Below are positions 2,220 through 38,668 of a stretch of 39,532 nt of DNA, one piece after another. Location: contig VGOD01000024.1 in assembly GCA_016876015.1 (NCBI GenBank), forward strand, positions 1-39,532. The letters are read 5' to 3'. The stretch's first letter is position 1. Each line of letters begins with the position of its first letter. A program made the translations under genes and the position numbers. The notes under the pieces are model-generated. The model searched no databases and was not told where the DNA came from. It was given only the letters and a program-made list of their open reading frames with translations. This stretch comes from Chloroflexota bacterium. Its GTDB lineage: Bacteria > Chloroflexota > Anaerolineae > CG2-30-64-16.

Positions 2220-4058
2220 GTGAGGGGTAATACCATAGCGCGGCTCCGGCGCTGCGTGCGCGGCCGCTTGACGCTAGAAGATCTCTGGCTCTGCCTGCCG
2301 GTTTTGGGCTTGCTGATCATCCTCGATCTCTCCCTGGTGCGGCCCTACGACTTCTGGTGGCACCTGGCCGCGGGTCAGATCGTCGCCGAGAGCGGCGCGA
2401 TCCCCGCGGTTGATCCCTTCAGCTTCACCCGCGGGGGCCAGCCCTGGACCGACCAGGCCTGGTTGGCGCAGGTCATCCTCTACGCCCTCTACCGGCCCAA
2501 AGCGAGTCTGGGTCTCTTGAGCGGCTTGCCCCTGGTGATCTTCGTTCACGCGCTGGCAGTGACGGCCGGCTACACGCTGGTGATGCTGGCTGCCCTGCGG
2601 GCGGCCGATGGCCAGAGCCGGCCGGCCAGCCTGGCGACGCTGCTGGCAGCCGCGGTGAGTGTGTTCAACTGGAACGTGCGACCGCAGACCGCCTCGTTCC
2701 TGCTGTTCGGCGCGGTGGTGTGGGCCCTGGAAACGCATCGGACCGGACGCGGCTGGGCGATGTGGGTCTTGCCGCCGGTCTTCGCTCTGTGGGCGAATCT
2801 ACACGGCGGCTTCATGTTCGGCGCGCTCCTGGTCGGCATCTATGTCGTGACGCGACTGGTCGAAGACCTCGCTGGCGCGCGCCGTGTGGCTGCGGCGACC
2901 GCCCAGGCGCTGGCCGCGGCGACGGTATCGGCGCTGGCGTTGGTCCTGACGCCATTCGGTCTGCTCGGCAGCGTGCGCTACATCCTGGGGCTGGGGCAAA
3001 GCCGCGCGGTGCAGGACTTCGTGCTGGAATGGATGCCGCTGAGCGTGCGCACGCTCGACGGCCAGATCTTCCTGGTCGTCGTCATCCTGCTCCTGGCGCT
3101 CGCCTACATCCGCCGGCCCGCGATGCCGGCCTATCTCCCCGTGGCGCTGGTCATCTTCGCCAGCCTCAGCCTCTACACACGACGCGCCGAGCCGTGGTTC
3201 GGCATGGTCGCCGCCCCGGCCTTCGCGCTCCTGTTGGCCCCAGCGAGACGATCGGGCAGTTCGACAACGCCTGAAGACGCGCGAAGCGCCGCGAACTCCC
3301 AGGCAGCGGCGCGTCCTCCGCATCAGGACGACTCTGCAGTTGCCGATGCCGCGGCCGGCGCCAGCCTGCCCCCTGGCCTGTCGGCCAGGACAGGCTGGCT
3401 GCGCTACGCAGGCCAGGGTGCGCAGCCTCCCGGTGGGACGGCGAGCGAAAAACAGGTGGGCTGGAATAGAGGCTTTAGCCAGTTTGGTGGTCGGCGGCAG
3501 AAACCGGCTGAGCCTACAAGGAGGCTTCGCACAGCCTCGAGACCAGAGCGGTGGGCCATTTTCAGGACAGCGGGCCCGGCCGGCCAGCGCGACAAACCTG
3601 CGCTCAACTACGCGGTTCTGGGCCTGTTACTCCTGCTGGCGTTCGCCAGCCTGCCGTGGCTGCGGCTGGCCATGCCGTTCCCTCCCCACTGGCGCAGCTA
3701 CATCGCCCTGGCCGAAACGCCGATCGCCGCGACAGAACGGCTATGCGCGCTCGACGACGACATCCGCGTCTTCAACGACATGGGCTATGGCAGCTATCTG
3801 ATTTGGGCGTGCCCGCGCGTGCCGGTGTTCATTGACACGCGCATCGAGGTCTATCCGAGTGCGATGTGGCGCGAGTACTTTCTGGTGAGCGATGGCCAGT
3901 TCGGGTGGGAGGCGGCGCTGGCCAGGCATAACGTCAATGCGATCCTGGCGAACAAGGAGCGACAACGGATGCTCACGCTGGCGGCGAAGGCATCGAACGC
4001 CTGGAAAGTCGTATATGAGGACGCGCACAGCGCCCTTCTGCTGCGCAGCGAGCCATAG
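2220..4058 (+). CDS. Polytopic membrane protein, GT-C glycosyltransferase-like
   Basis: A 612-residue integral membrane protein of unknown substrate. The N-terminal part has LVRPYDFWWHLAAGQIV and later PFSF and PWTDQAWL, a D-x-W-W-H pattern seen in GT-C-like membrane proteins. About eight or more hydrophobic helices lie between residues 20 and 340, with further helices after residue 455, and the C-terminal soluble part contains MGYGSYLIWACPRVPVFIDTR. Residues about 340-455 are low-complexity and arginine/proline-rich and look unlike the rest: they coincide with an interspersed repeat (3456-3571) that reads through in frame. GTG at 2220 is the only plausible near start, since the ATG two bases earlier is followed at once by TGA. 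The sugar or lipid substrate cannot be inferred. Confidence 0.7.
   Translation: MRGNTIARLRRCVRGRLTLEDLWLCLPVLGLLIILDLSLVRPYDFWWHLAAGQIVAESGAIPAVDPFSFTRGGQPWTDQAWLAQVILYALYRPKASLGLLSGLPLVIFVHALAVTAGYTLVMLAALRAADGQSRPASLATLLAAAVSVFNWNVRPQTASFLLFGAVVWALETHRTGRGWAMWVLPPVFALWANLHGGFMFGALLVGIYVVTRLVEDLAGARRVAAATAQALAAATVSALALVLTPFGLLGSVRYILGLGQSRAVQDFVLEWMPLSVRTLDGQIFLVVVILLLALAYIRRPAMPAYLPVALVIFASLSLYTRRAEPWFGMVAAPAFALLLAPARRSGSSTTPEDARSAANSQAAARPPHQDDSAVADAAAGASLPPGLSARTGWLRYAGQGAQPPGGTASEKQVGWNRGFSQFGGRRQKPAEPTRRLRTASRPERWAIFRTAGPAGQRDKPALNYAVLGLLLLLAFASLPWLRLAMPFPPHWRSYIALAETPIAATERLCALDDDIRVFNDMGYGSYLIWACPRVPVFIDTRIEVYPSAMWREYFLVSDGQFGWEAALARHNVNAILANKERQRMLTLAAKASNAWKVVYEDAHSALLLRSEP
3456..3571 (+). 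repeat. Interspersed structured repeat, copy 1 (inside a reading frame)
   Basis: About 115 bases closely matching 11829-11943. Both contain GAGGCTTTAGCC, TTTGGTGGTCGGCGGCAGAAA, AGGAGGCTTCGCACAGCCTC and ATTTTCAGGACA. Internal hairpins are GAGGCT/AGCCTC, and a longer pairing of AGGCTTTAGCC with the GGCTGAGCCT segment. This copy lies inside the 612-residue membrane protein gene without breaking its frame. Confidence 0.8.
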
Positions 4059-4072
4059 GCCAGGGCCGCGCC

Positions 4073-5407
4073 ATGGCTGACGCAGCACAACGGCTGGCCC
4101 GTTTCCTCGGCCCCAAACGTCTCGGCTATGCCTGGATCGCTGGCGCCACACTCTGGATCGGTTGGCTGATCAGCGTCTCGTTGGGGTCGGGCAACGTGGA
4201 CCTGGCCGGCCAGGTGATCGGTACCGACTACCTGGAATTCTACGCGGCCGGCCTCACCGTGCGGCTGGGAGAAAGCGAGCGGCTCTACGACGTGGCCTAT
4301 CAGAGCCAGCTTCAGCAAACGGTCATCGGCCCCCGGCTCAAAGTCTACTACGGCTTCATCACCCCTCCGTTCTTCGCCTGGGTCTTTGCCCCACTTTCGC
4401 TGCTGCCCTACGTGCCGAGCTTTGCGGTTTGGAGCCTGCTCGGCCTGCTGGGGCTGTGGCTCAGCTTGCGATTGCTTGGCGCGGCGCAGCCGCGGCGGGT
4501 CCTCCTGTGGTCGCTGACCTGGTTCCCGGTCTTCGCGACGATCAGCTACGGGCAGAACAGCCTGTTGAGCCTGATGCTGTTGAGCCTGACCTGGCGGCTG
4601 TGGCGCCGCGGGCATTCCTGGCCAGCCGGCCTGGTCGCCAGCCTGCTGCTCTACAAGCCGCAACTGCTGCTGGGGGTGGGTCTGCTGTGGCTGCTGGAGG
4701 CGATTGCCCCCCACCAGGCGCCAGGCGCCAGTGCGGATGAAAACGTAGCGCAAGATGGCATCTTGCGGCACGCTCCGGCGATTTTCAGGACACTCCCCCG
4801 CCGACCCGCGCTGACCGCGCTGCTGGGCCTGGCGGCCGGCGGAGGAGCGCTGTTCGCACTCTCTGTTTTGGGGATGCCAGAGGCCAGCCGGGCCTACTGG
4901 GAGTTTGCGCGCACGGTGCTGCCGAATCTCCCGGCCTGGCAGGAGTTCCCGCTGTGGAATCTGCACACCGTCTGGGGTTTTTGGCGGCTGCTGCTGCCCG
5001 CCGCGGCTCGGTGGGCCGACGTGCTGCACTGGTCGTTCGCTATCGCGGGCGTAGTAGGCTTCGTGGTGTTTTGGCGCAGGCAGCGCGGGCGGCCAGCCCT
5101 GCTCTACGCAGCCGCGATCGGACTGACGCTGTGGGCGACGCCGCACGCGATGATCTACGACTGGACGCTGCTGCTGATCCCGGCCGTGACGCTCTGGCAG
5201 GAAGCGCCCGCCCAAAGGGATCGCTGGAAGATCCTGTTCGTTGCGATTTGGATCGCTTCCTTCGTCAGCGGGCCGCTGACCCATGCGCAGTTGCGCTGGC
5301 TGCCGGTCGCGGTGCAGATCAGCGCGCCGACCCTGCTGATCGCGCTCGGCCTGGCCTGGCGCTGGGTTATCAGGTCAAACCAGCCGGCGGCGCCTCATAC
5401 TGCTTGA
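4073..5407 (+). CDS. GT87/DUF2029-type membrane glycosyltransferase
   Basis: A 444-residue polytopic protein with the layout of the DUF2029 (GT87) family, membrane mannosyltransferase-like enzymes that use a polyprenyl-phosphate sugar donor. Seen here: a first helix near residues 18-36, then the acidic loop TDYLEFYAAG (the Asp is the usual catalytic candidate), YDVAYQ, YGFITPPFFAWVFAPL, ISYGQNSLLSLMLL and SLLLYKPQLLLGVG, all typical of the family. Eight to ten helices are visible. Residues about 223-241 (DENVAQDGILRHAPAIFR) are unlike the family and derive from a palindromic repeat. It starts 15 bases after the preceding membrane protein gene, so the two are likely cotranscribed. Its 3' end overlaps the convergent DUF362 gene by 38 bases. 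Confidence 0.75.
   Translation: MADAAQRLARFLGPKRLGYAWIAGATLWIGWLISVSLGSGNVDLAGQVIGTDYLEFYAAGLTVRLGESERLYDVAYQSQLQQTVIGPRLKVYYGFITPPFFAWVFAPLSLLPYVPSFAVWSLLGLLGLWLSLRLLGAAQPRRVLLWSLTWFPVFATISYGQNSLLSLMLLSLTWRLWRRGHSWPAGLVASLLLYKPQLLLGVGLLWLLEAIAPHQAPGASADENVAQDGILRHAPAIFRTLPRRPALTALLGLAAGGGALFALSVLGMPEASRAYWEFARTVLPNLPAWQEFPLWNLHTVWGFWRLLLPAAARWADVLHWSFAIAGVVGFVVFWRRQRGRPALLYAAAIGLTLWATPHAMIYDWTLLLIPAVTLWQEAPAQRDRWKILFVAIWIASFVSGPLTHAQLRWLPVAVQISAPTLLIALGLAWRWVIRSNQPAAPHTA
4741..4793 (+). repeat. Palindromic repeat inserted in frame in a coding region
   Basis: The core 4749-4767 is a perfect palindrome (CGCAAGATG, one base, CATCTTGCG). It is preceded by GTAG, as in the 13931-13969 copy, and followed by ATTTTCAGGACA, the same tail that ends the 3456 and 11829 repeats. 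It is translated as part of the GT87-type protein and keeps the frame open. Confidence 0.75.
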
Positions 5408-11789: not shown

Positions 11790-11943
11790 AAAGATCAATC
11801 GCGGCCGGCGCCACGACCCATGAACAACAGGTGGCTGGATTCGAGGCTTTAGCCGGTTTGGTGGTCGGCGGCAGAAATCGGCTGATCCTAAGGAGGCTTC
11901 GCACAGCCTCGAAACCAAGGCAGTGGGCGTCCTATTTTCAGGA
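11785..11943 (+). repeat. Interspersed structured repeat, copy 2, with TCCTGAAAA/TTTTCAGGA ends
   Basis: The part 11829-11943 matches 3456-3571 closely. The element is bounded by TCCTGAAAA on the left (overlapping the recJ stop) and TTTTCAGGA on the right, a 9-base inverted pair. Inside are the hairpin GAGGCT/AGCCTC and the AGGCTTTAGCCGG pairing. It fills nearly all the space between recJ and pfkA, and no promoter for pfkA is evident in it. No transposase is present. Confidence 0.75.
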
Positions 11944-11985
11944 CAAACCAGCCGCGTCATTCAGGGTGAGATGGAGGATGGCAGA

Positions 11986-13930: not shown

Positions 13931-13969
13931 AGTGATGTAGCGCAAGATGCCATCTTGCACTACATCACT
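13931..13969. repeat. 39-base near-perfect palindrome
   Basis: Arms of 19 bases around one central base with a single mismatch: AGTGATGTAG, C, GCAAGATG on the left against its complement on the right. The inner 17-19 bases equal the core found inside the GT87-type gene at 4749-4767 apart from the central base and one flank, so these are two members of one family. It sits just before the ribosome site of the aminotransferase gene. Confidence 0.85.
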
Positions 13970-13990: not shown

Positions 13991-15160
13991 ATGGCTTTTG
14001 CCGACCGCGTGTCGCATCTGGCGCCCGAAGGCGCCTACCACATGTTAGCCCGCGCCCAGGCGCTCGAAGCCACAGGCCGCAAGATCATCCACCTGGAGAT
14101 CGGGCAGCCGGACGCGCCGACCTTCGCCAACATCGTCGAGGCCGGCATCCAGGCGCTGCGCGACGGCCGCACCCGCTACACCGCAGCCGCCGGCATCCTG
14201 GGCCTGCGCCAGGCCATCGCCGAGCAGGCTGGCCGGCAACGCGGCATGACCATCCGGCCTTCGCAGGTGGTCGTCGGGCCGGGCGCCAAACCCGCGCTCT
14301 TCTTTCCGACCCTGGCGCTGGTGCGGCCCGGCGATGAGGTGATCTATCCCGATCCGGGCTTTCCCACCTACGAGGCGATGATCGGCGTCGCGGGGGGCGT
14401 GGCGCTGCCCGCGCCGCTGCTGGAGGAGAGCGACTTCTCCTTCGATCTCGACGCGTTCGACCGCCTCGTCAGCGACCGCACCAGGCTCATCATCCTCAAC
14501 TCGCCCAGCAACCCCACGGGCGGCGTCATGCCGTTGGCGGCCCTCGAACACATCGCCGATGTGGCGCGGCGACGCGACATTTGGGTGCTCTCGGATGAGA
14601 TCTACACCCGGCTGGCCTACGACGGCTGCGCCGTACCCAGCATCGCGGCCCTGCCCGGCATGGCCGAGCGGACGATCATCTGCGACGGCTTCTCCAAGAC
14701 CTACGCGATGACGGGCTGGCGGCTGGGGTTCGGCATCATGCCAGAGCCGCTGGCCGAACGGGTCGAGCTGCTCCTGACCCACTCGGTCGGCAGCACGGCC
14801 GACTTCACCCAACACGCGGGCCTGGCTGCGTTACGCGGCCCCCAAGACCAGGTGGAGGCCGTCGTAGCCGAATACCAGCGTCGCCGCGATCTGTTGGTGG
14901 CCGGCCTGAATGCGATTCCAGGGGTGCGTTGCCGCTATCCACAAGGCGCGTTCTATGTCTTCCCCAACATCACGGCTTTTGGCAGGCCCTCGACGTGGCT
15001 GGCCAACTACCTGTTGGAGGAGGGCGGGGTGGCGCTGCTGCCGGGCACCGCCTTCGGCAAATATGGCGAGGGCTACCTGCGGCTCTGCTTCGCCAGCTCG
15101 CTGGAGAACATCCGAGAGGCGCTCGATCGGATGGCAGAGGCACTCGGCCGCCTGGCGTGA
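13991..15160 (+). CDS. Pyridoxal-phosphate aminotransferase, class I/II
   Basis: A 389-residue fold-type I aminotransferase. The protein shows IHLEIGQPDAPTF, YTAAAGILGLRQAIA, the cofactor-contact ILNSPSNPTGGVMP, WVLSDEIYTRLAYD, and the Schiff-base lysine in DGFSKTYAMTGWRLGF; the substrate-carboxylate Arg is in EGYLRLCFA. This is the pattern of aspartate/aromatic-type aminotransferases, but substrate preference cannot be read from it. GAGGAGGA at 13978-13985 places the start at 13991; the upstream open frame is hairpin repeat, not protein. It converges with the secreted propeller protein gene, 6 bases between their stop codons. Confidence 0.93.
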   Translation: MAFADRVSHLAPEGAYHMLARAQALEATGRKIIHLEIGQPDAPTFANIVEAGIQALRDGRTRYTAAAGILGLRQAIAEQAGRQRGMTIRPSQVVVGPGAKPALFFPTLALVRPGDEVIYPDPGFPTYEAMIGVAGGVALPAPLLEESDFSFDLDAFDRLVSDRTRLIILNSPSNPTGGVMPLAALEHIADVARRRDIWVLSDEIYTRLAYDGCAVPSIAALPGMAERTIICDGFSKTYAMTGWRLGFGIMPEPLAERVELLLTHSVGSTADFTQHAGLAALRGPQDQVEAVVAEYQRRRDLLVAGLNAIPGVRCRYPQGAFYVFPNITAFGRPSTWLANYLLEEGGVALLPGTAFGKYGEGYLRLCFASSLENIREALDRMAEALGRLA

Positions 15161-15166
15161 GAATCC

Positions 15167-16735
15167 TCACTGACCGGGCGTGAGAGTGAAGGTGAACTTG
15201 CCGACCCGGTTGGAGATGCCGGAGGTTTGCCCGCCGGCGTCGGCCGCGCGCACGGCGTAGTAGTGACTGGCGACCTGCGGCATCACGTTGACATCGCTAT
15301 ATCCCGCGGTCACGGTCGTCGTGAGGGGCGTCGTCGGGCTGAAGTAGGGCGCCGCATCGCGATGGATTTCGTAGTGGTGGACCGGGCCGGCCGCGGGGGA
15401 CCAGGTCAACACCGCATCATTGCCGGATCTGCTGATGCGCAGATCGGTCACGGTTGTCAAGCCGCTCGCCTGCGACCACTGTGCGAAGTAGTATGAGCTC
15501 TTGCCGCCTGCTTGCGTGAAGTACCCGCCGACGAACAGGCTGCCGATCGCCAGCGCGTTCACCCGGCTGCCAGACAGGCCGCCGACGCCGCTGCCGAGCG
15601 TCGCCCAGGCGCTCGCGTCGTTGTCCCACAGCGCGATCCGGTTGACGGTCTTGGATGCGCCCCCGGCATCGGTAGCCTGGATGAAGCTGCCCCCCGCATA
15701 GACGAGCCTGCCATCCGCGCTGACCGCGATCGCTCGCACGTGATTGTCAACCCCCTGACCGAGCGCGGACCAGCCGGCGCCATCCCACACCGCGATGCGG
15801 TTGACGCCGATGGGCGAACCGCCGGCCGTCTCGCTGAACTCGCCGCCGGCATATACCGCGGTCGCGTGAATGGCGATAGTCTTGACGCGGCCATTGAAGC
15901 CGTCGCCCAGCGCCTCCCAGCCGCTCCCTTCGCTCCAGCGGCCGATGCGATTGGCCGCTGCGCCGCCGGCCATGTCGAAATCGCCGCCCACATAGACCCG
16001 GCCGCTGGCATCGGCCGCCGCCGCGAAGACATAGGAGTTGACGCCGCCGCCAACGGCGCTCCAGGCGCTGCCGTTCCAACGCGCGATGTGGCTGATGCTG
16101 GCATCGCCGCCTGCGGCCGAGAAATAGCCGCCGACGTAGACATCGCTGCCGTGAACGGCGATCGCGTTGACTGTGTCGTTGACGCCGTTGTTCGCGCCAG
16201 CGCCCAGGGCGGACCAGGCGCTGCCGTTCCAGCGGGCGATGTTATTGGCGCTGGCGGCTCCGGCCTGGCCAAAGGCGCCGCCGACATAAATGCCGCCATC
16301 CGCGGCGACAGCGATCGCATAGACGGTTCCGTCCACGCCGTTCGTCGGGGGGCCGCCCACCGCGGACCAGGCGCTGCCGTTCCAGCGGGCGACATTGTTG
16401 GCACTCACGCCGGCCACCGCGCTGAACGACCCGCCGACGTACACGACGGTCCCGCTGATCGCGATCGCATTGACCGGTCCATTGGGGCTATTGGCCGCGG
16501 TGAAAGCAGCGGACCAGTTATCGTCATCGCCGGAAGTCGAGACGACTTGATCAGCCGCCGCGTGCAGCTCGGTGTGCGATCCTGGAGTGAGGATGCCTTC
16601 GTTGGCCAGCGGCGCGGCGCTCGCCGGACCGGACAGCCGAGGAATCGGGGCCAGGGCCAACAGCGCGGCCGCCAGCACGGTGAGCCAGCGCAGCGCCGGC
16701 GGAGATGATCGGACAAAGGACGTGCGAACAGCCAT
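15167..16735 (-). CDS. Secreted propeller-like repeat protein with fibronectin-type C-terminus
   Basis: A 522-residue exported protein. A signal sequence (RWLTVLAAALLALAPIPRLS, then ASAAP) is followed by about seven imperfect repeats of roughly 48-55 residues with the theme (V/I)YVGG-x-F-x-x-AGG, then (N/H)IARW(N/D)GSAWSALG and VNAIAV. Such repeats fold as a beta-propeller-like surface domain. From about residue 435 a fibronectin type III-like domain follows (VTDLRISRSGNDAVLTW, HHYEIHRD, HYYAVRAADAGG). No catalytic residues were recognised; an adhesive or surface role is a guess. The start at 16735 is supported by GGAGAGG and places the signal peptide correctly; an upstream in-frame ATG would add 28 unlikely residues. 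Confidence 0.85.
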   Translation of the reverse strand: MAVRTSFVRSSPPALRWLTVLAAALLALAPIPRLSGPASAAPLANEGILTPGSHTELHAAADQVVSTSGDDDNWSAAFTAANSPNGPVNAIAISGTVVYVGGSFSAVAGVSANNVARWNGSAWSAVGGPPTNGVDGTVYAIAVAADGGIYVGGAFGQAGAASANNIARWNGSAWSALGAGANNGVNDTVNAIAVHGSDVYVGGYFSAAGGDASISHIARWNGSAWSAVGGGVNSYVFAAAADASGRVYVGGDFDMAGGAAANRIGRWSEGSGWEALGDGFNGRVKTIAIHATAVYAGGEFSETAGGSPIGVNRIAVWDGAGWSALGQGVDNHVRAIAVSADGRLVYAGGSFIQATDAGGASKTVNRIALWDNDASAWATLGSGVGGLSGSRVNALAIGSLFVGGYFTQAGGKSSYYFAQWSQASGLTTVTDLRISRSGNDAVLTWSPAAGPVHHYEIHRDAAPYFSPTTPLTTTVTAGYSDVNVMPQVASHYYAVRAADAGGQTSGISNRVGKFTFTLTPGQ

Positions 16736-16819
16736 TACGCCTCTCCAGACGAAATCGGGCGAATCACGCGGCAGACAGCCGCGGCGCGAGTGAAGCCAGG
16801 AGCAGAGGCCCCCTTCCAT

Positions 16820-16848
16820 AAGGTAGCACAGCGCTGCGGCCCTGACAA
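16820..16848 (-). promoter_or_regulatory. Weak candidate promoter for the propeller protein
   Basis: On the minus strand TTGTCA (16843-16848), 17 bases, TACCTT (16820-16825). The -35 and spacing are good, the -10 is poor. Confidence 0.3.
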
Positions 16849-16893
16849 TAGGCTTTTTGGCCCGGTCGCCCCAGGAGTTTGCTGCTCGCCGAA

Positions 16894-16922
16894 TTGCACG
16901 ATGTCGCCATCTCTGCTAGAAT
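16894..16922 (+). promoter_or_regulatory. Candidate sigma70 promoter for the GNAT operon
   Basis: TTGCAC (16894-16899), 17 bases, TAGAAT (16917-16922). Transcription would start near 16929, about 15 bases before the ATG at 16944. It would drive both the acetyltransferase and the C_GCAxxG_C_C gene. Confidence 0.55.
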
Positions 16923-16943
16923 TGAGCCGAGGTTTCATAGGCC

Positions 16944-17801
16944 ATGCACCTGACCCGCCACCTGACCCCCAACACCTTTCTGGCCCGCAGCCAGGCTGAC
17001 CTGGAACGCGCCGAGGCCGAGAACAACCTGATCCTCGGGGTCAGCACGCGTCTCAGGGATCAGCCAGGCCGCACGGCCGCGCCGCCCTATCTCGCTACCG
17101 TAGAGGACGCGAACGGGTTGGCGGCTGCCGCGGTGATGACCCCGCCGCATCGGGTCATCATCTACAGCGCGCGACGCGATGAGCCGGCCCCGCTGCGCCT
17201 GATCCTGCACGATCTATGCGCCGACGGCTGGCGCGTGCCTGGGGTGGTCGGTCTGGCCGCGACCGCGCGAGCATTCGCCGAGTTGTGGCGTGCAGCCACC
17301 GGCCGACCCTTTCGCCTGAGCCGGCACGAACGGGTGTATGAGCTGCGCGCCGTCACGCCGCCCCCGAAGCCGGCCGGCTTCATGCGGCTGGCCATGGAGA
17401 CCGACGGCGAGCTGGCCAGCGAGTGGTCATTCTGCTTCTGGCGCGAGCTTGGAGTGACGGGCACGGGTGAGGATGCGCGCGCAAGCGCCGGCCCACGCAT
17501 CGCAAACCGCGAACTCTACCTGTGGGATGATGGCGGACCGGTTTCGATGGCGGGCAAGGCGCGACCGACCGCGCACGGCATGGCGGTCAGCCTGGTCTAC
17601 ACGCCGCCAGAGCGCCGGAATCGCGGCTATGCCAGCGCGCTCGTGGCGGCGCTCAGCCAGCATCTCCTGGACGCCGGCTGGCAGTTCTGCGTGCTTTTCA
17701 CCGATCTGGCGAACCCGATCTCGAACAGCATCTATCAGCGCATCGGCTACCGGCCGGTATCTGACTTCGACGAGTATGACTTCGACTATGAACCACGCTG
17801 A
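16944..17801 (+). CDS. GNAT-family N-acetyltransferase
   Basis: A 285-residue protein. The C-terminal half is a GNAT domain: MAVSLVYTPPERRNRGYASALVAALSQ contains the acetyl-CoA pyrophosphate-binding R/Q-x-x-G-x-G/A pattern (RRNRGYAS), followed by CVLFTDLANPISNSIYQRIGYRPV, the usual end of the fold. The N-terminal half (about 1-140) is a diverged second lobe, as in two-domain GNAT proteins. The acceptor substrate is unknown. Its last 14 bases overlap the following gene, so the two are translationally coupled. Confidence 0.88.
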   Translation: MHLTRHLTPNTFLARSQADLERAEAENNLILGVSTRLRDQPGRTAAPPYLATVEDANGLAAAAVMTPPHRVIIYSARRDEPAPLRLILHDLCADGWRVPGVVGLAATARAFAELWRAATGRPFRLSRHERVYELRAVTPPPKPAGFMRLAMETDGELASEWSFCFWRELGVTGTGEDARASAGPRIANRELYLWDDGGPVSMAGKARPTAHGMAVSLVYTPPERRNRGYASALVAALSQHLLDAGWQFCVLFTDLANPISNSIYQRIGYRPVSDFDEYDFDYEPR

Positions 17802-18243
17802 TCTCGCACTATCTCATTTTCAAGAGGGCTTTTCGTGCGCGCAGGCGGTGCTGGTCGCCTTCGCGCCCGATTTCGGGCTCGACCGCGATCTGGCCTTGAA
17901 GATCGCCGCGGCCTTCGGCGGCGGGATGGGACGCACCGGGGGAACCTGCGGCGCGGCGTCGGGCGCGCTGATGGCGCTGGGGCTGAAGGATGGCGCAACG
18001 CGCGGGGAAGACAAGACGACCAAGGAACGCGCCTATAGCCGCGCCAGGGAGTTCCTGGAGCAGTTCCAGGCGCGCCACGGCGCCATCACCTGTCCGGGAT
18101 TGCTCGGCCACGACATCGGCACGGCCGCCGGGATGGAAGCCGCGCGGGAACAGGGGCTGTTCAAGTCTTTCTGTCCGCGTTTGGTCGAGGATGCAGTGAA
18201 GATCGTGGAAGAGATGTGGGCCAGGGACGAACGCGTGGAGTGA
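17788..18243 (+). CDS. C_GCAxxG_C_C family redox-type protein
   Basis: A 151-residue protein of the C_GCAxxG_C_C family, named for its conserved cysteines. They are visible in order: FSCAQAVLVAF, the signature GGTCGAASGALMALG, ITCPGLLGHDIG and FCPRL. The family is thought to bind a metal or work in redox reactions, and is common in anaerobes; biochemical function is not settled. The ATG at 17788 lies inside the end of the acetyltransferase gene. Convergent with the Mth938-type gene. Confidence 0.88.
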   Translation: MNHADLALSHFQEGFSCAQAVLVAFAPDFGLDRDLALKIAAAFGGGMGRTGGTCGAASGALMALGLKDGATRGEDKTTKERAYSRAREFLEQFQARHGAITCPGLLGHDIGTAAGMEAAREQGLFKSFCPRLVEDAVKIVEEMWARDERVE

Positions 18244-18256
18244 CCGTGCGGGGCGA

Positions 18257-18619
18257 CTAACACGTCACGTGGAACAGCCCCAGCACTTTTCCTTCGGCCT
18301 CATTCCATTCGCGAATCGCTTCTGGCGTTTTCCACAGGTCCACCTGGCAATCGTGTTTGGCGAGGAACGCCGCCGCCTCCGCGGAGAGCTCGATCTTGCC
18401 TTCGTGGCCCGCGCCGATGATGATCCGCTCGGCCTTCTTGCGATACAGCTCCTGGATTTCGGCCAGACTGATCTTGTGCGACGTACCATAGACCGCCTTA
18501 GAAAGGGTCTTGCGGCGCTTGCGCACCTTGCCGGAGAGCCGGATGATGATGTCGTGCTCGTAGCGTCGGCCCTCGACGGTGATGCTGCCGAACCAGGTAT
18601 CGTCAATCTTGGGTCGCAT
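18257..18619 (-). CDS. Mth938-like domain (DUF498/NDUFAF3-type) protein
   Basis: A 120-residue protein matching the Mth938/DUF498 fold, the family that includes mitochondrial complex I assembly factor NDUFAF3. Seen: FGSITVEGRRYEHDIII near the N-terminus, the helix LAEIQELYRKKAERIIIGAGHEG and the late strand VDLWKTPEAIREWNEAEGKVLGLFHVTC. The bacterial role is unknown. The start at 18619 (MRPKIDDTWFG) is preferred over a longer open frame because GAGG lies 6 bases before it and a promoter is correctly placed upstream. Confidence 0.85.
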   Translation of the reverse strand: MRPKIDDTWFGSITVEGRRYEHDIIIRLSGKVRKRRKTLSKAVYGTSHKISLAEIQELYRKKAERIIIGAGHEGKIELSAEAAAFLAKHDCQVDLWKTPEAIREWNEAEGKVLGLFHVTC

Positions 18620-18654
18620 GAGACGCCTCGTCAGCGAGTGGAATGTCGGGAGGA

Positions 18655-18683
18655 ATTCTAGCACAGAGCAGCCGGCGATGCAA
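18655..18683 (-). promoter_or_regulatory. Candidate sigma70 promoter for the Mth938-type gene
   Basis: On the minus strand TTGCAT (18678-18683), 17 bases, TAGAAT (18655-18660). Transcription would begin near 18648, about 30 bases before the ATG at 18619. Confidence 0.55.
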
Positions 18684-18724
18684 TCGGCGGGATGGTTACA
18701 CCTGCCGCGTAGACACGACGCCTC

Positions 18725-19034
18725 TCAATGCCGATAGTCGCCCAGCCAATGTACCCAATTCAGCGCCTCATGCACTGCGTTGAATAGTCGCTCATCCGCG
18801 GTCCAGAATGGGCATGTGTACATCTCGGCCAACGCCAGGTAGTGAGCATCGTAGGCTGCCGGATGATTCAGACGCCGCGCCATCTCGGATGCACGTACGT
18901 GGAGATCAGGCGGTCTCATCCAGCTTTTGCGCTCGCCATTCGACCCAAAGCGCCCGCGCCAGAGGCGCGTCCGGCTCATCGAGGAAAACCCGTTTGATGG
19001 CCAGGCCAGCGTCAGCGCAAACCCAGGATTTCAT
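18725..19034 (-). pseudogene. Eroded VapC-type PIN toxin
   Basis: Two pieces of one PIN-domain protein lie in different frames. The N-terminal piece from the ATG at 19034 reads MKSWVCADAGLAIKRVFLDE, with the first catalytic Asp in VCADAGLAIK, and stops at 18906. The C-terminal piece (about 18725-18917) contains AAYDAHYLALAE and PFWTADERLFNAV, the third and fourth acidic positions of PIN nucleases. About 50 residues carrying the second acidic site are missing and the frames do not join, so it is a deletion plus frameshift remnant. Just upstream, a short frame ending near 19012 reads GDSTELLREE, resembling the tail of a VapB-type antitoxin. Nothing else was seen in 19035-19239. Confidence 0.75.
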
Positions 19035-19239
19035 CGTCGCATTCCTCGCGCAACAGCTCAGTGGAGTCGCCAGGCTGGACACCTTGCGCCTGACGCCAGT
19101 GGGAGTGCGAGTTGCAGAGAAGCGGCGGCCATCGGAGTGATAAAACCGCGCCAATCAGACCTTCGAGCTGTCCTGGATCTCGAAGGTCTGATCGCGTCTG
19201 GGCTCCGGACCGGCGCGCCAGGCAGCCCGCCGCGCCAGG

Positions 19240-19683
19240 CTACCGATCGCGGGGATCGTACTCATGGAAGGCTTTCAGTTGATCAATCGCGAATTGCTGA
19301 TTGGAGATGATGGCGTTGACGACATCCCCGATCGAGATCACGCCGATCAAGGCGCCGTCATCCATCACCGGCAGATGCCGCACGTGTTTGTCGGTCATCA
19401 GCGCCATGCACGCCTCGACAGGCGTCTCGGGGTTGACGTGCACCACGCGCGAGGTCATGATCTCGCGGACGGGCGTTTCCTTGGATGACTTGCCGTGCAA
19501 GATGACCTTGCGGGCGTAGTCGCGTTCCGAAATCACACCTACCAGCGTCTGTCCGTCGAGCACCAACAAAGCCCCCACATTCTTCGCAGCCATCAACGTC
19601 AAGGCGTCGAACACGGTGGCGTCTAGCGAAACGGCATGGATCTCGTACCCCTTACGCTGCAAGAGCTCTTTGACAGTCCTCAT
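19240..19683 (-). CDS. Two-CBS-domain protein
   Basis: A 147-residue protein made of a Bateman pair of CBS domains and little else. CBS1 spans about residues 8-62 (VFDALTLMAAKNVGALLVLD, LVGVISERDYARKVIL); CBS2 about 72-130 (VREIMTSRVVHVNPETPVEACMALM, HLPVMDDGALIGVISIGDVVNAII). Such pairs bind adenosine nucleotides. The ERDYARK segment is typical of stand-alone bacterial CBS regulators. An optimal AAAGGAGG precedes the ATG and a near-consensus promoter lies upstream, so the gene is likely well expressed on its own. Confidence 0.92.
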   Translation of the reverse strand: MRTVKELLQRKGYEIHAVSLDATVFDALTLMAAKNVGALLVLDGQTLVGVISERDYARKVILHGKSSKETPVREIMTSRVVHVNPETPVEACMALMTDKHVRHLPVMDDGALIGVISIGDVVNAIISNQQFAIDQLKAFHEYDPRDR

Positions 19684-36659: not shown

Positions 36660-36725
36660 GCCAGGTGGCCGTCCACGAATGGTTTCCACGAATGCACGAA
36701 TCGAGAATCGCGCGTAATGCAATTC
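36660..36725. repeat. CACGAATG-type inverted repeat downstream of the GxxExxY gene
   Basis: Contains GTCCACGAATGGTTTCCACG at the left and CAATTCGTGCTC at the right. It lies between the GxxExxY stop and the HdrA start, with a weaker match than the hairpin at 37283. Confidence 0.55.
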
Positions 36726-36748
36726 GTGCTCTATTGGCGGAAGGCACC

Positions 36749-37207
36749 TCACCCACGCATATCAAATCGCTGCCGAACATTATCACGTCCCAGTCGTGCG
36801 GGTGGTTCATTTCCTGCCTTGCCAGGAAATATTCGTTTGTATTCCAACTTCCGGCGTCCAAAGTTGAACAGCAAGCCAACAGGCGCGCCGGTTGCCTTCA
36901 GGTAGTTGATGACCTGCGCTAATTCATCTCGTGTGAGCTGGTGCGAGAATGCTTTCATCTCAACCACAACTGTACGTGCTACAAACAGGTCGAGAAAAAA
37001 CACGGCTACCAGCGTGCCAACATCGTAGACATCAACCCGGTATTGGGTTTCGACAGGCAGGTCTTCTTTCGCCAACTCAGCGGCCAGGCTGCGTTCATAG
37101 ACCTCTTCTTTGTAGCCAGGTCCGAGACGATTGTGTACTCGCATCGCGGCGCCGATGATGCGGTAGGTTAAGTCGTTACCGGTAGCGTCCCGCACAAGTC
37201 CGGGCAT
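36749..37207 (-). CDS. GxxExxY family protein (PD-(D/E)XK-like)
   Basis: A 152-residue GxxExxY protein, intact. The naming motif is LGPGYKEEVYERSLAAEL; the probable nuclease core is VFFLDLFVARTVVVEMKAF (D...E-x-K); the end is INYLKATGAPVGLLFNFGRRKLEYKR, typical of the family. Function is unproven; a nuclease-like fold is predicted. AAGGAGAA precedes the ATG at 37207. The last 25 residues are basic and may derive from the adjoining repeat. It interrupts the hydrogenase gene order between the SpoIIE-like gene and hdrA and has CACGAATG-type repeats on both sides. The family's members are often present in many copies per genome. Confidence 0.88.
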   Translation of the reverse strand: MPGLVRDATGNDLTYRIIGAAMRVHNRLGPGYKEEVYERSLAAELAKEDLPVETQYRVDVYDVGTLVAVFFLDLFVARTVVVEMKAFSHQLTRDELAQVINYLKATGAPVGLLFNFGRRKLEYKRIFPGKAGNEPPARLGRDNVRQRFDMRG

Positions 37208-37282
37208 AAACGAGTTCTCCTTGTGCGTCCCTGGCCAGTAACCCTGTTTGGTTGTCCACAAGTGCCATCCACGAATGATTTT

Positions 37283-37325
37283 CACGAATGCACGAATGAC
37301 GCACCAGACCCTTCGTGCATTCGTG
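37283..37325. repeat. 14-base-pair CACGAATG hairpin, diverged first repeat unit
   Basis: CACGAATGCACGAA (37283-37296) pairs perfectly with TTCGTGCATTCGTG (37312-37325), loop of 15 bases. It is the core of an older, less conserved copy of the 77-base units that follow. Confidence 0.85.
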
Positions 37326-37346
37326 TCCGATTTGTGGACGGCCCGC

Positions 37347-37500
37347 CATGAACAATCTCCACGGATGCACGCATCGCACACCAGGCCATTCGTGCATTCG
37401 TGTCCGATTCGTGGACGGCCCCCCATGAACAATCTCCACGGATGCACGCATCGCACACCAGGCCATTCGTGCATTCGTGTCCGATTCGTGGACGGCCCCC
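37347..37500. repeat. Two tandem 77-base units built from CATTCGTG/CACGAATG
   Basis: Units 37347-37423 and 37424-37500 are almost identical. Each starts CATGAACAATCTCCACGGAT and ends GATTCGTGGACGGCC plus a C run. They fill the space between the SpoIIE-like stop and the GxxExxY leader; no other gene is seen in 37208-37501. Confidence 0.9.
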
Positions 37501-37501
37501 C

Positions 37502-38668
37502 TCACAAATACTCCACCCTCACAATCTTCCCTCGCGCCCGCAACGCCTCGGCGAGGCTGGAGACCGCGGCCTTGCGCAGCGGCGTCCCGTCCCGTTCGAC
37601 CTGCGCGGGGTTGACCGCCAGGCCGACGATGAAGCGCACCTTGTCCGCGGTCAGCAGCCGCATCGCCAGCCGCGAAGCGCCATCCGTCCGGCCCGCCAGG
37701 TCGCGCGGCCGGCTCGCCTCAGCCAGCCGCTCGCGCGCCACGCGGAGCGTCACCGCGCCCTCGGTGAGCAGGTCAATCCGCTCGGCGCAGCCGACCAGGC
37801 GCGAGGTCGGCGGGACCTCCGTCCAGCCCTCCGCGGGCGGCGGCTCCATCGCCAACCTGCCGCCCAACAATCGGGCCGCGATCTCCGCGGTCGTATCCCC
37901 ACAGATGATACGCGTCCCTTCCTCGGCCAGCAGCCGATCCAGCGCCTCCCGATCCCGCCCCCGATCCGCCGGCGGCCCAGTCCAAACCGTGGCAGTGCGC
38001 ATGGGGCGGACGAACATCGCGAGGAGGCAGAAGGCAGAAGGTAGAAGGCAAAACTCCGATTTGCTGATTTGCTGATTTGCTGATTTGCGATCTGCCAGCC
38101 GCGCCAGCGCCCCCGCCAACTGCTCGGCATCGCAGCCGGTAGCGGTCAGGCGACGGATGGCGAGGGCGATATCGCGCCAACTCCACGGCCGGCCGCCGCC
38201 ACGCGCCCGAATGTAGCCTTCACTGACCAGCGCCAAGTGATCGCCGGCCTGCACCGTGAAGTCGCAGCGGCGCACCAGCCGGCCGCCGAGCTCCACCTCG
38301 GTGACAGGGAGTAGAACAAACTCACCTTTGCGGGCCACAAACAGCGGCGGCGCATCAATCTCGGCCAACTCCGCCCCCCCGTTGCGGCCGATGCGCAGCA
38401 GAGCTGCAGCGACGTGCTCGTCTGCTGGCAGTGCGGCGAGCACGTCAGCCACGACGCCGTCCATCGGGACGCCGGAGACCAGCTCAGCAGTCACTCGCCG
38501 CGCAATGCCCGTACTGATCCCTGGCCCGTGACTCCTGACCCCTGTCTCCTGCCCCCCGACTACGGCTGCTACAAACTGATCTTCAGTTGTTACAGTGCTC
38601 ACTCCGTCGGCAGTTGTACCATCTCCTACCGGCCAAACCCGATATGCGCTTTCGACCCACAGTTTCAT
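37502..38668 (-). CDS. SpoIIE-type PP2C phosphatase relative, catalytic motif altered
   Basis: A 388-residue protein. Residues about 1-190 follow the SpoIIE/PP2C fold (MKLWVESAYRVWPVGDGTTADG, later IDAPPLFVARKGEFVLLPV and VQAGDHLALVSEGYI). The second half (about 222-388) is a domain seen in SpoIIE-like proteins of hydrogenase operons (ICGDTTAEIAARLLG, VDL-type repeats). The usual VLSDGxGSG metal-binding motif is replaced: residues 36-52 read VVGGQETGVRSHGPGIS and the DG Asp is missing. That stretch matches the GTCAGGAGTC-type repeat. A second repeat block encodes residues about 195-217. Phosphatase activity is therefore doubtful. It may have bound or opposed the CBS-HATPase protein (20602-21540); this is inference. 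Confidence 0.75.
   Translation of the reverse strand: MKLWVESAYRVWPVGDGTTADGVSTVTTEDQFVAAVVGGQETGVRSHGPGISTGIARRVTAELVSGVPMDGVVADVLAALPADEHVAAALLRIGRNGGAELAEIDAPPLFVARKGEFVLLPVTEVELGGRLVRRCDFTVQAGDHLALVSEGYIRARGGGRPWSWRDIALAIRRLTATGCDAEQLAGALARLADRKSANQQISKSEFCLLPSAFCLLAMFVRPMRTATVWTGPPADRGRDREALDRLLAEEGTRIICGDTTAEIAARLLGGRLAMEPPPAEGWTEVPPTSRLVGCAERIDLLTEGAVTLRVARERLAEASRPRDLAGRTDGASRLAMRLLTADKVRFIVGLAVNPAQVERDGTPLRKAAVSSLAEALRARGKIVRVEYL
38026..38089. repeat. Tandem 7-mer and 8-mer repeats inside the SpoIIE-like gene
   Basis: Four imperfect copies of GGCAGAA (38026-38053) are followed by four copies of GATTTGCT (38058-38089). Together they encode a foreign-looking stretch around KSANQQISKSEFCLLPSAF and leave the frame open. 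Confidence 0.85.
38528..38560. repeat. ACTCCTGACCCCTGTCTCC repeat inside the SpoIIE-like gene
   Basis: Inverted relative of the 6408-6450 repeat. It encodes GGQETGVRSHGP in place of the region where SpoIIE-type phosphatases carry their DG motif. Confidence 0.65.

Follow-up and report, generated by a model that had tools for sequence, protein, structure and literature searches.

The repeats that resemble the one described here most closely are the REPs, which TnpAREP transposases cut in single-stranded form using GTAG (PMC8266576). The survey of Di Nocera 2013 (PMC3733652) lists GTAG-tagged REP families 1–24, which include Chloroflexi (e.g., T. roseum GTAG-23), and reports that intragenic REPs occur in many species and that REPtrons can be absent in some; the same survey files RPE-4 and RPE-6 among the CGTC REPs without a dedicated transposase. 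In tnpAREP genes, double-foot REPs of TnpAREP (TnpAY1) subclass 2.4 have been found as insertions that keep the reading frame (PMC6006769).

We analyzed a window of 39,532 nt (contig VGOD01000024.1) from a draft metagenome-assembled genome (MAG) of a Chloroflexota bacterium of the Anaerolineae (GCA_016876015.1, here the own genome or G000; 6.53 Mb, 533 contigs, 98% complete, 5.5% contamination). The closest protein relatives of this host were Chloroflexota MAGs, mostly Anaerolineae and Thermoflexus. The original prediction, made from the window alone, held that a 19-base palindrome interrupts a GT87-type gene in frame and recurs between genes further along. Both copies were located: the core CGCAAGATGGCATCTTGCG at 4749–4767 on the plus strand, and a variant core in a longer intergenic palindrome that stops about 20 bp short of the start codon, the ATG at 13991 (Table 1). 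Chance matches to the palindrome expected within the window amounted to 0.01. A genome-wide search confirmed that these were not two chance copies, since the 27-bp form GTRGSGCAANNTGNCANNTTGCSCYAC was detected with up to three mismatches in 36 places (reversed-pattern control, 0) and GCAAGATGSCATCTTGC with up to two mismatches in 37 (reversed pattern, 0). Roughly two-thirds of the own-genome copies were extragenic, in keeping with the mainly extragenic placement of REPs. The palindrome was counted by this pattern census; other repeat families were scanned in about 0.8 Mb plus the loci of the own genome. The core palindrome was present in 38 of 298 genomes of the class, and the 27-mer, with at most two mismatches, in 11 of 400 sampled genomes of the phylum.

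Table 1. Features of the window (nucleotide positions) and other own-genome loci (L numbers) with an in-frame palindrome
Feature	Position or locus	Strand	Remarks
Membrane-protein gene upstream of GT87 gene, 612 aa (P0002)	2220..4058	+	51% identity to L056 protein on both sides of insert
In-frame repeat-derived insert, about 100 residues, in P0002 gene	~3249..3578	+	Absent from L056 homologue
GT87-type membrane glycosyltransferase gene, 444 aa (P0001)	4073..5407	+	PF09594
In-frame 33-residue insert A210–P242 (AIAPHQAPGASADENVAQDGILRHAPAIFRTLP)	4700..4798	+	MAFFT alignment; homologues without repeat lack insert
Left part: fragment of second palindromic repeat (HQAPGAS...) and GGCGCCAGTGCGGATGAAAAC module	4710..4742	+	96% match to C41
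27-bp REP hairpin GTAG-CGCAAGATGGCATCTTGCG-GCAC	4745..4771	+	Frame gives VAQDGILRH
Tail module GCTCCGGCGATTTTCAGGACA, reads APAIFRT	4772..4793	+	Aligned with dispersed copies C36, C388, C40, C89, C1
Non-coding copy of P0002 composite repeat	11822..11945	+	86% over 127 nt
Intergenic copy in 5' leader of next gene	13931..13969	.	39-bp near-perfect palindrome, variant core; 27-mer at 13937–13963
FAD oxidoreductase	L014		In-frame palindrome; +8 aa vs 1y56_B
MrfA-like helicase	L016		In-frame palindrome; +12 aa vs 6znp
Secreted subtilase N-terminus	L017	+	In-frame palindrome; left side is signal peptide only, low codon score
Subtilase with Big_1 domains	L024		In-frame palindrome; ORF and codon evidence
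PyrF–PyrE fusion linker	L027 (C40)		In-frame palindrome; 530 residues over 471 model positions
PMT-like glycosyltransferase	L030		In-frame palindrome; ORF and codon evidence
Secreted-type protein	L033		In-frame palindrome; ORF and codon evidence
DNA methylase, two palindromes	L034		In frame; ORF and codon evidence
BirA ligase	L228		In-frame palindrome; ORF and domain evidence only
Membrane protein	L265		In-frame palindrome; ORF and codon evidence

The consensus of the repeat is a 27-bp hairpin, GT[AG]G–core–C[CT]AC, and its GTRG...CYAC pattern was matched exactly by 13 copies. With this length and copy number it falls among the short dispersed hairpins (20–40 bp, many copies), and some copies reach a palindrome of 45–50 bp. 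Of the two ends of the copy in the GT87 gene, one is GTAG and the other a degenerate GCAC; the DNA fold of this copy was estimated at −8.0 kcal/mol (z −4.1) with the GTAG foot unpaired, and that of the intergenic copy at −15.0 kcal/mol (z −7.4). The arms covaried among copies: 97.5% of cells were paired (32–46% in slid controls) and double changes numbered 61 vs 15.9 in shuffles, figures that describe the set more than they prove the structure because the sequences had been pre-selected as palindromes. A general excess of palindromes was rejected, as the loose hairpin scan returned mostly masked N runs and its shuffled control found 176; the scan served only for spotting families. Positions 16362–19519 of own-genome locus L245 are a run of masked N of about 3.1 kb.

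The GT87 assignment of the interrupted gene was borne out, with P0001 scoring 57.3 bits against PF09594 (cut-off 25). Its homologues were 43–61% identical. In the MAFFT rows without a repeat, LLWL.. was followed by xRxGWxAL with nothing at the P0001 insert site; some rows are one genome fetched twice, so the independent homologues are fewer than the rows. The comparison was made with homologous proteins, with no empty GT87 site at the DNA level. About 18 residues had been predicted to be foreign to the family. Their absence from the homologues of other genomes was confirmed, so they are not residues shared among orthologues, but the estimate of size was too low, as the insert spans 33 residues. 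Its recognizable repeat-derived part (nt 4710–4793) is a composite with three sources: a second palindromic repeat contributed HQAPGAS, the 27-bp hairpin VAQDGILRH and the tail module AIFRT. The insert DNA matched dispersed copies on C36 (93%), C41 (96%) and C388 (83%), and translated dispersed copies matched P0001 residues 213–262. The CACCAGGCGCCAGGCGC stretch of the left part was matched exactly at L228:15352, within an in-frame HQAPGASEAPGAW copy. AlphaFold2 gave pLDDT values of 55–68 for residues 211–240 and 96–97 for the flanking helices, so that in the model the insert forms a loop of low confidence linking two membrane helices; the site is most likely a permissive loop.

The same site was occupied by a different repeat in the nearest relative. 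The protein of this Lake Pavin MAG (G004, JAPLHB01; 61% identity; MAFFT rows L037, L045 and L056) carries an insert of about 60 residues there, encoded by 180 nt (L056:3636–3815) that were matched at least 60 times within G004, with identity to other sites reaching 90%. This repeat is in frame and distinct from the 27-bp hairpin, and thus one GT87 loop took up repeats of unrelated kinds in two related lineages. In Di Nocera 2013 (PMC3733652), the different REPs near the same recB site in two Xanthomonas species are a similar case.

In-frame spread, the broader part of the original prediction, was also found: flank codon scores and ORF continuity placed 12 palindromes in 11 probable genes of the own genome. 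Alignment supports genuine insertion in the GT87 protein (33 aa), the MrfA-like helicase (12 aa) and the FAD oxidoreductase (8 aa); aligning BirA (L228) with E. coli BirA gave no clean gap. Matches in L028 (AVQDGIWLP) and L029 (LEQAAIL) were left out of the count as natural coding coincidences, and L012, L013 and the minus-strand ORF of L017 were judged spurious. The PyrF–PyrE linker (L027, C40) consists largely of dispersed repeat DNA. The second palindromic repeat, CAGGCRCTTCNGAAGYGCCTG, lies in frame in three probable genes (L228:15362, L230:18441 and L265:2023) in one common phase, read as PG[TA]SE[VA]PG.

All 12 in-gene palindromes were read in the GTA-GCG-CAA phase, giving V-A/G-Q-x-x-x-L-R/P-x. 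Two of the three codon phases of the hairpin are free of stops and the third has TAG, with both strands giving the same phases. With equal odds for the two open phases, this outcome would have p ~2e-4, a post hoc value. Among 47 scanned copies in G239, a genome with 97, none lay in this frame within a gene, which indicates that in-gene insertion is not a fixed property of the repeat family; 46 had no coding context and one was flagged in a different phase with marginal scores. The single-phase bias deserves a test and, like the filling of one loop by two repeats, is worth following.

RAYT genes were detected in 67 of 298 genomes of the class. Palindromes of this type were present on both sides of 11 of 30 RAYT loci in related genomes and on at least one side of 17, some of the remaining loci having shorter hairpins or lying near contig ends. 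Palindrome density was 3.44/kb within 150 bp of RAYT loci vs 0.19/kb farther off. The G181 RAYT sits between GTAGCGCAAATTGTCAATTTGCGCTAC and GTAGGGCAAGATAACATCTTGCCCTAC, and that of G092 adjoins an exact GCAAGATGCCATCTTGC core, so that these relatives have the repeat beside a RAYT/TnpAREP gene, as in REPtrons. L190 and L191 scored above the NCBIfam NF047646 REP_Tyr_transpos cut-off, and L190 matched the TnpAREP structure 4er8 in PDB. The G092 gene beside the exact core palindrome (L211) has an apparent frameshift near its C-terminus and is possibly a pseudogene.

No member of the closest RAYT subfamily was found at E ≤ 1e-10 in the own genome, a MAG that is 98% complete. A cognate RAYT in the genome is the rule for such REPs but no requirement; here its absence means loss, an assembly gap or the action of another enzyme. 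The one clear own-genome RAYT (L123, C209; 177 aa; NF047646, 101.7 bits) has copies of another repeat, GAGGCTTTAGCCGGT, on either side. The own-genome Y1_Tnp genes were rejected as mobilizers of the palindrome, neither being flanked by it. Across genomes, several of them incomplete MAGs, no correlation of copy number with Y1_Tnp presence was seen; G239 (79% complete) had no Y1_Tnp match, nor did G002, which has many copies.

The hairpin can be named a further double-foot GTAG REP of the RAYT/TnpAREP type. It belongs to a known kind of REP, since it fits the double-foot GTAG REPs of the literature, which have already been reported to insert in frame. It shares with those of PMC6006769 the 5' GT[AG]G and 3' C[TC]AC feet, a long stem, the bracketing of RAYT genes and in-frame insertion with the reading frame kept; the likeness to subclass 2.4 is one of hairpin features. 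It differs in that the named in-frame cases are in tnpAREP genes, whereas here about 11 unrelated host genes are affected and no cognate RAYT was found in the same genome. With the GTAG REPs, as PMC3733652 describes them, it shares the GTAG foot, compensatory stem variants, dimers, REPtrons and intragenic units of 20–30 aa; compared by description, classic GTAG REPs have one unpaired foot, whereas here a foot at both ends can pair. The suggested analogy to Rickettsia RPE, which left the family open, was supported. The present repeat and the RPEs are both palindromic repeats in frame in many unrelated genes, and the comparison is apt because RPE-4 and RPE-6 are themselves filed among REPs in the Di Nocera survey. 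However, the hosts belong to different phyla, the likeness is one of behavior and not of RPE sequence, and the present repeat is a double-foot GTAG REP of RAYT/TnpAREP type instead of a stand-alone RPE analogue.

Unusual here are the number of in-frame cases and the single-phase bias. The locus adds a case from outside Rickettsiales and Proteobacteria of selfish hairpins supplying peptide to many unrelated proteins. With a diverse set of Chloroflexota hairpins now tied to RAYT genes, it becomes possible to test how RAYTs and REPs co-evolve and what intragenic REPs cost. Annotation of such genomes should allow for repeat-derived inserts of ~9 to 110 residues.

We consider it probable, with good confidence, that the GT87 segment arose when a composite REP repeat (the 27-bp GTAG double-foot hairpin together with the modules that usually flank it) was inserted in frame in a GT87 loop, and that the repeat was dispersed most likely by a RAYT and tolerated at a permissive site. 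The enzyme that spread the hairpin family would most likely have been a REP-associated tyrosine transposase (HuH/Y1 TnpAREP) with single-stranded hairpins as its substrate. The GT87 insertion probably survived because the 27 bp of the hairpin make nine codons, two of the three phases are open and the loop is permissive, with most other in-gene insertions presumably removed by purifying selection. Arm covariation, RAYT bracketing in relatives and the TnpAREP likeness make dispersal by a RAYT, with selection then keeping the tolerated sites, the best model. As no matching transposase was found in the own genome, we infer the mobilizing step, and with it RAYT mobilization in this lineage; the encoded peptide is presumably neutral. 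Dispersal of a different kind, as a MITE of another insertion sequence independent of RAYT, is unlikely on a search centred on RAYT and Y1_Tnp genes: the 45–50 bp palindromes and the copy-rich G239 and G002 fit it, but the GT[AG]G/C[CT]AC feet at both ends and the bracketing of RAYT genes in several families do not. Less probable still is a site of protein binding or regulation, such as a transcription-factor operator or bidirectional terminator, that overlaps genes by chance. Although many copies lie between genes, close to where a gene starts or ends, and the second copy in the window lies in a 5' leader, the core varies by compensatory pairs among copies and genomes, unlike a fixed operator; copies have mosaic flanks and sit in unrelated proteins, and related palindromes bracket RAYT genes.

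That the insert is a natural family-specific loop with a coincidental palindrome is scarcely credible. Such coincidences do seem to exist, as the L028 and L029 peptides illustrate, but at the GT87 locus this reading is already refuted by the flanking DNA, since dispersed non-coding copies match it too on either side of the palindrome, and by the absence of the loop from all homologue rows without a repeat. For the preferred explanation, REP insertion at a tolerated site, a difficulty, beside the missing cognate RAYT and the copy-rich G239 with no Y1_Tnp match, is that all 12 in-gene palindromes leave the second open phase unused, which plain tolerance does not predict. It is conceivable, if rather doubtful, that in this lineage the hairpin repeat is a coding module, with one phase favored by insertion or selection so that either strand yields the same V-[AG]-Q-x-x-x-L-[RP]-x nonapeptide, and with composite repeats repeatedly supplying loops and inter-domain linkers (the GT87 loop, the upstream membrane protein and the PyrF–PyrE linker).

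The upstream membrane-protein gene likewise contains repeat-derived DNA, in this case from another dispersed repeat. In the L056 homologue of P0002, about 22 nt separate the blast segments flanking the insert, and nine other homologues also lack it. The insert DNA was matched at many other fetched own-genome loci, some of them overlapping. The PyrF–PyrE linker shares the stretch WxRGFSxFGGRRQxPAxPxRRLRTASRPER with this insert, and GGAATAGAGGCTTTAGCC, within the insert repeat, also flanks the own-genome RAYT (L123) on both sides. Elsewhere in the window, positions 36668–37516 hold tandem and dispersed CACGAATGCACGAATG-type repeats, with three 99-nt copies at a spacing of 77.
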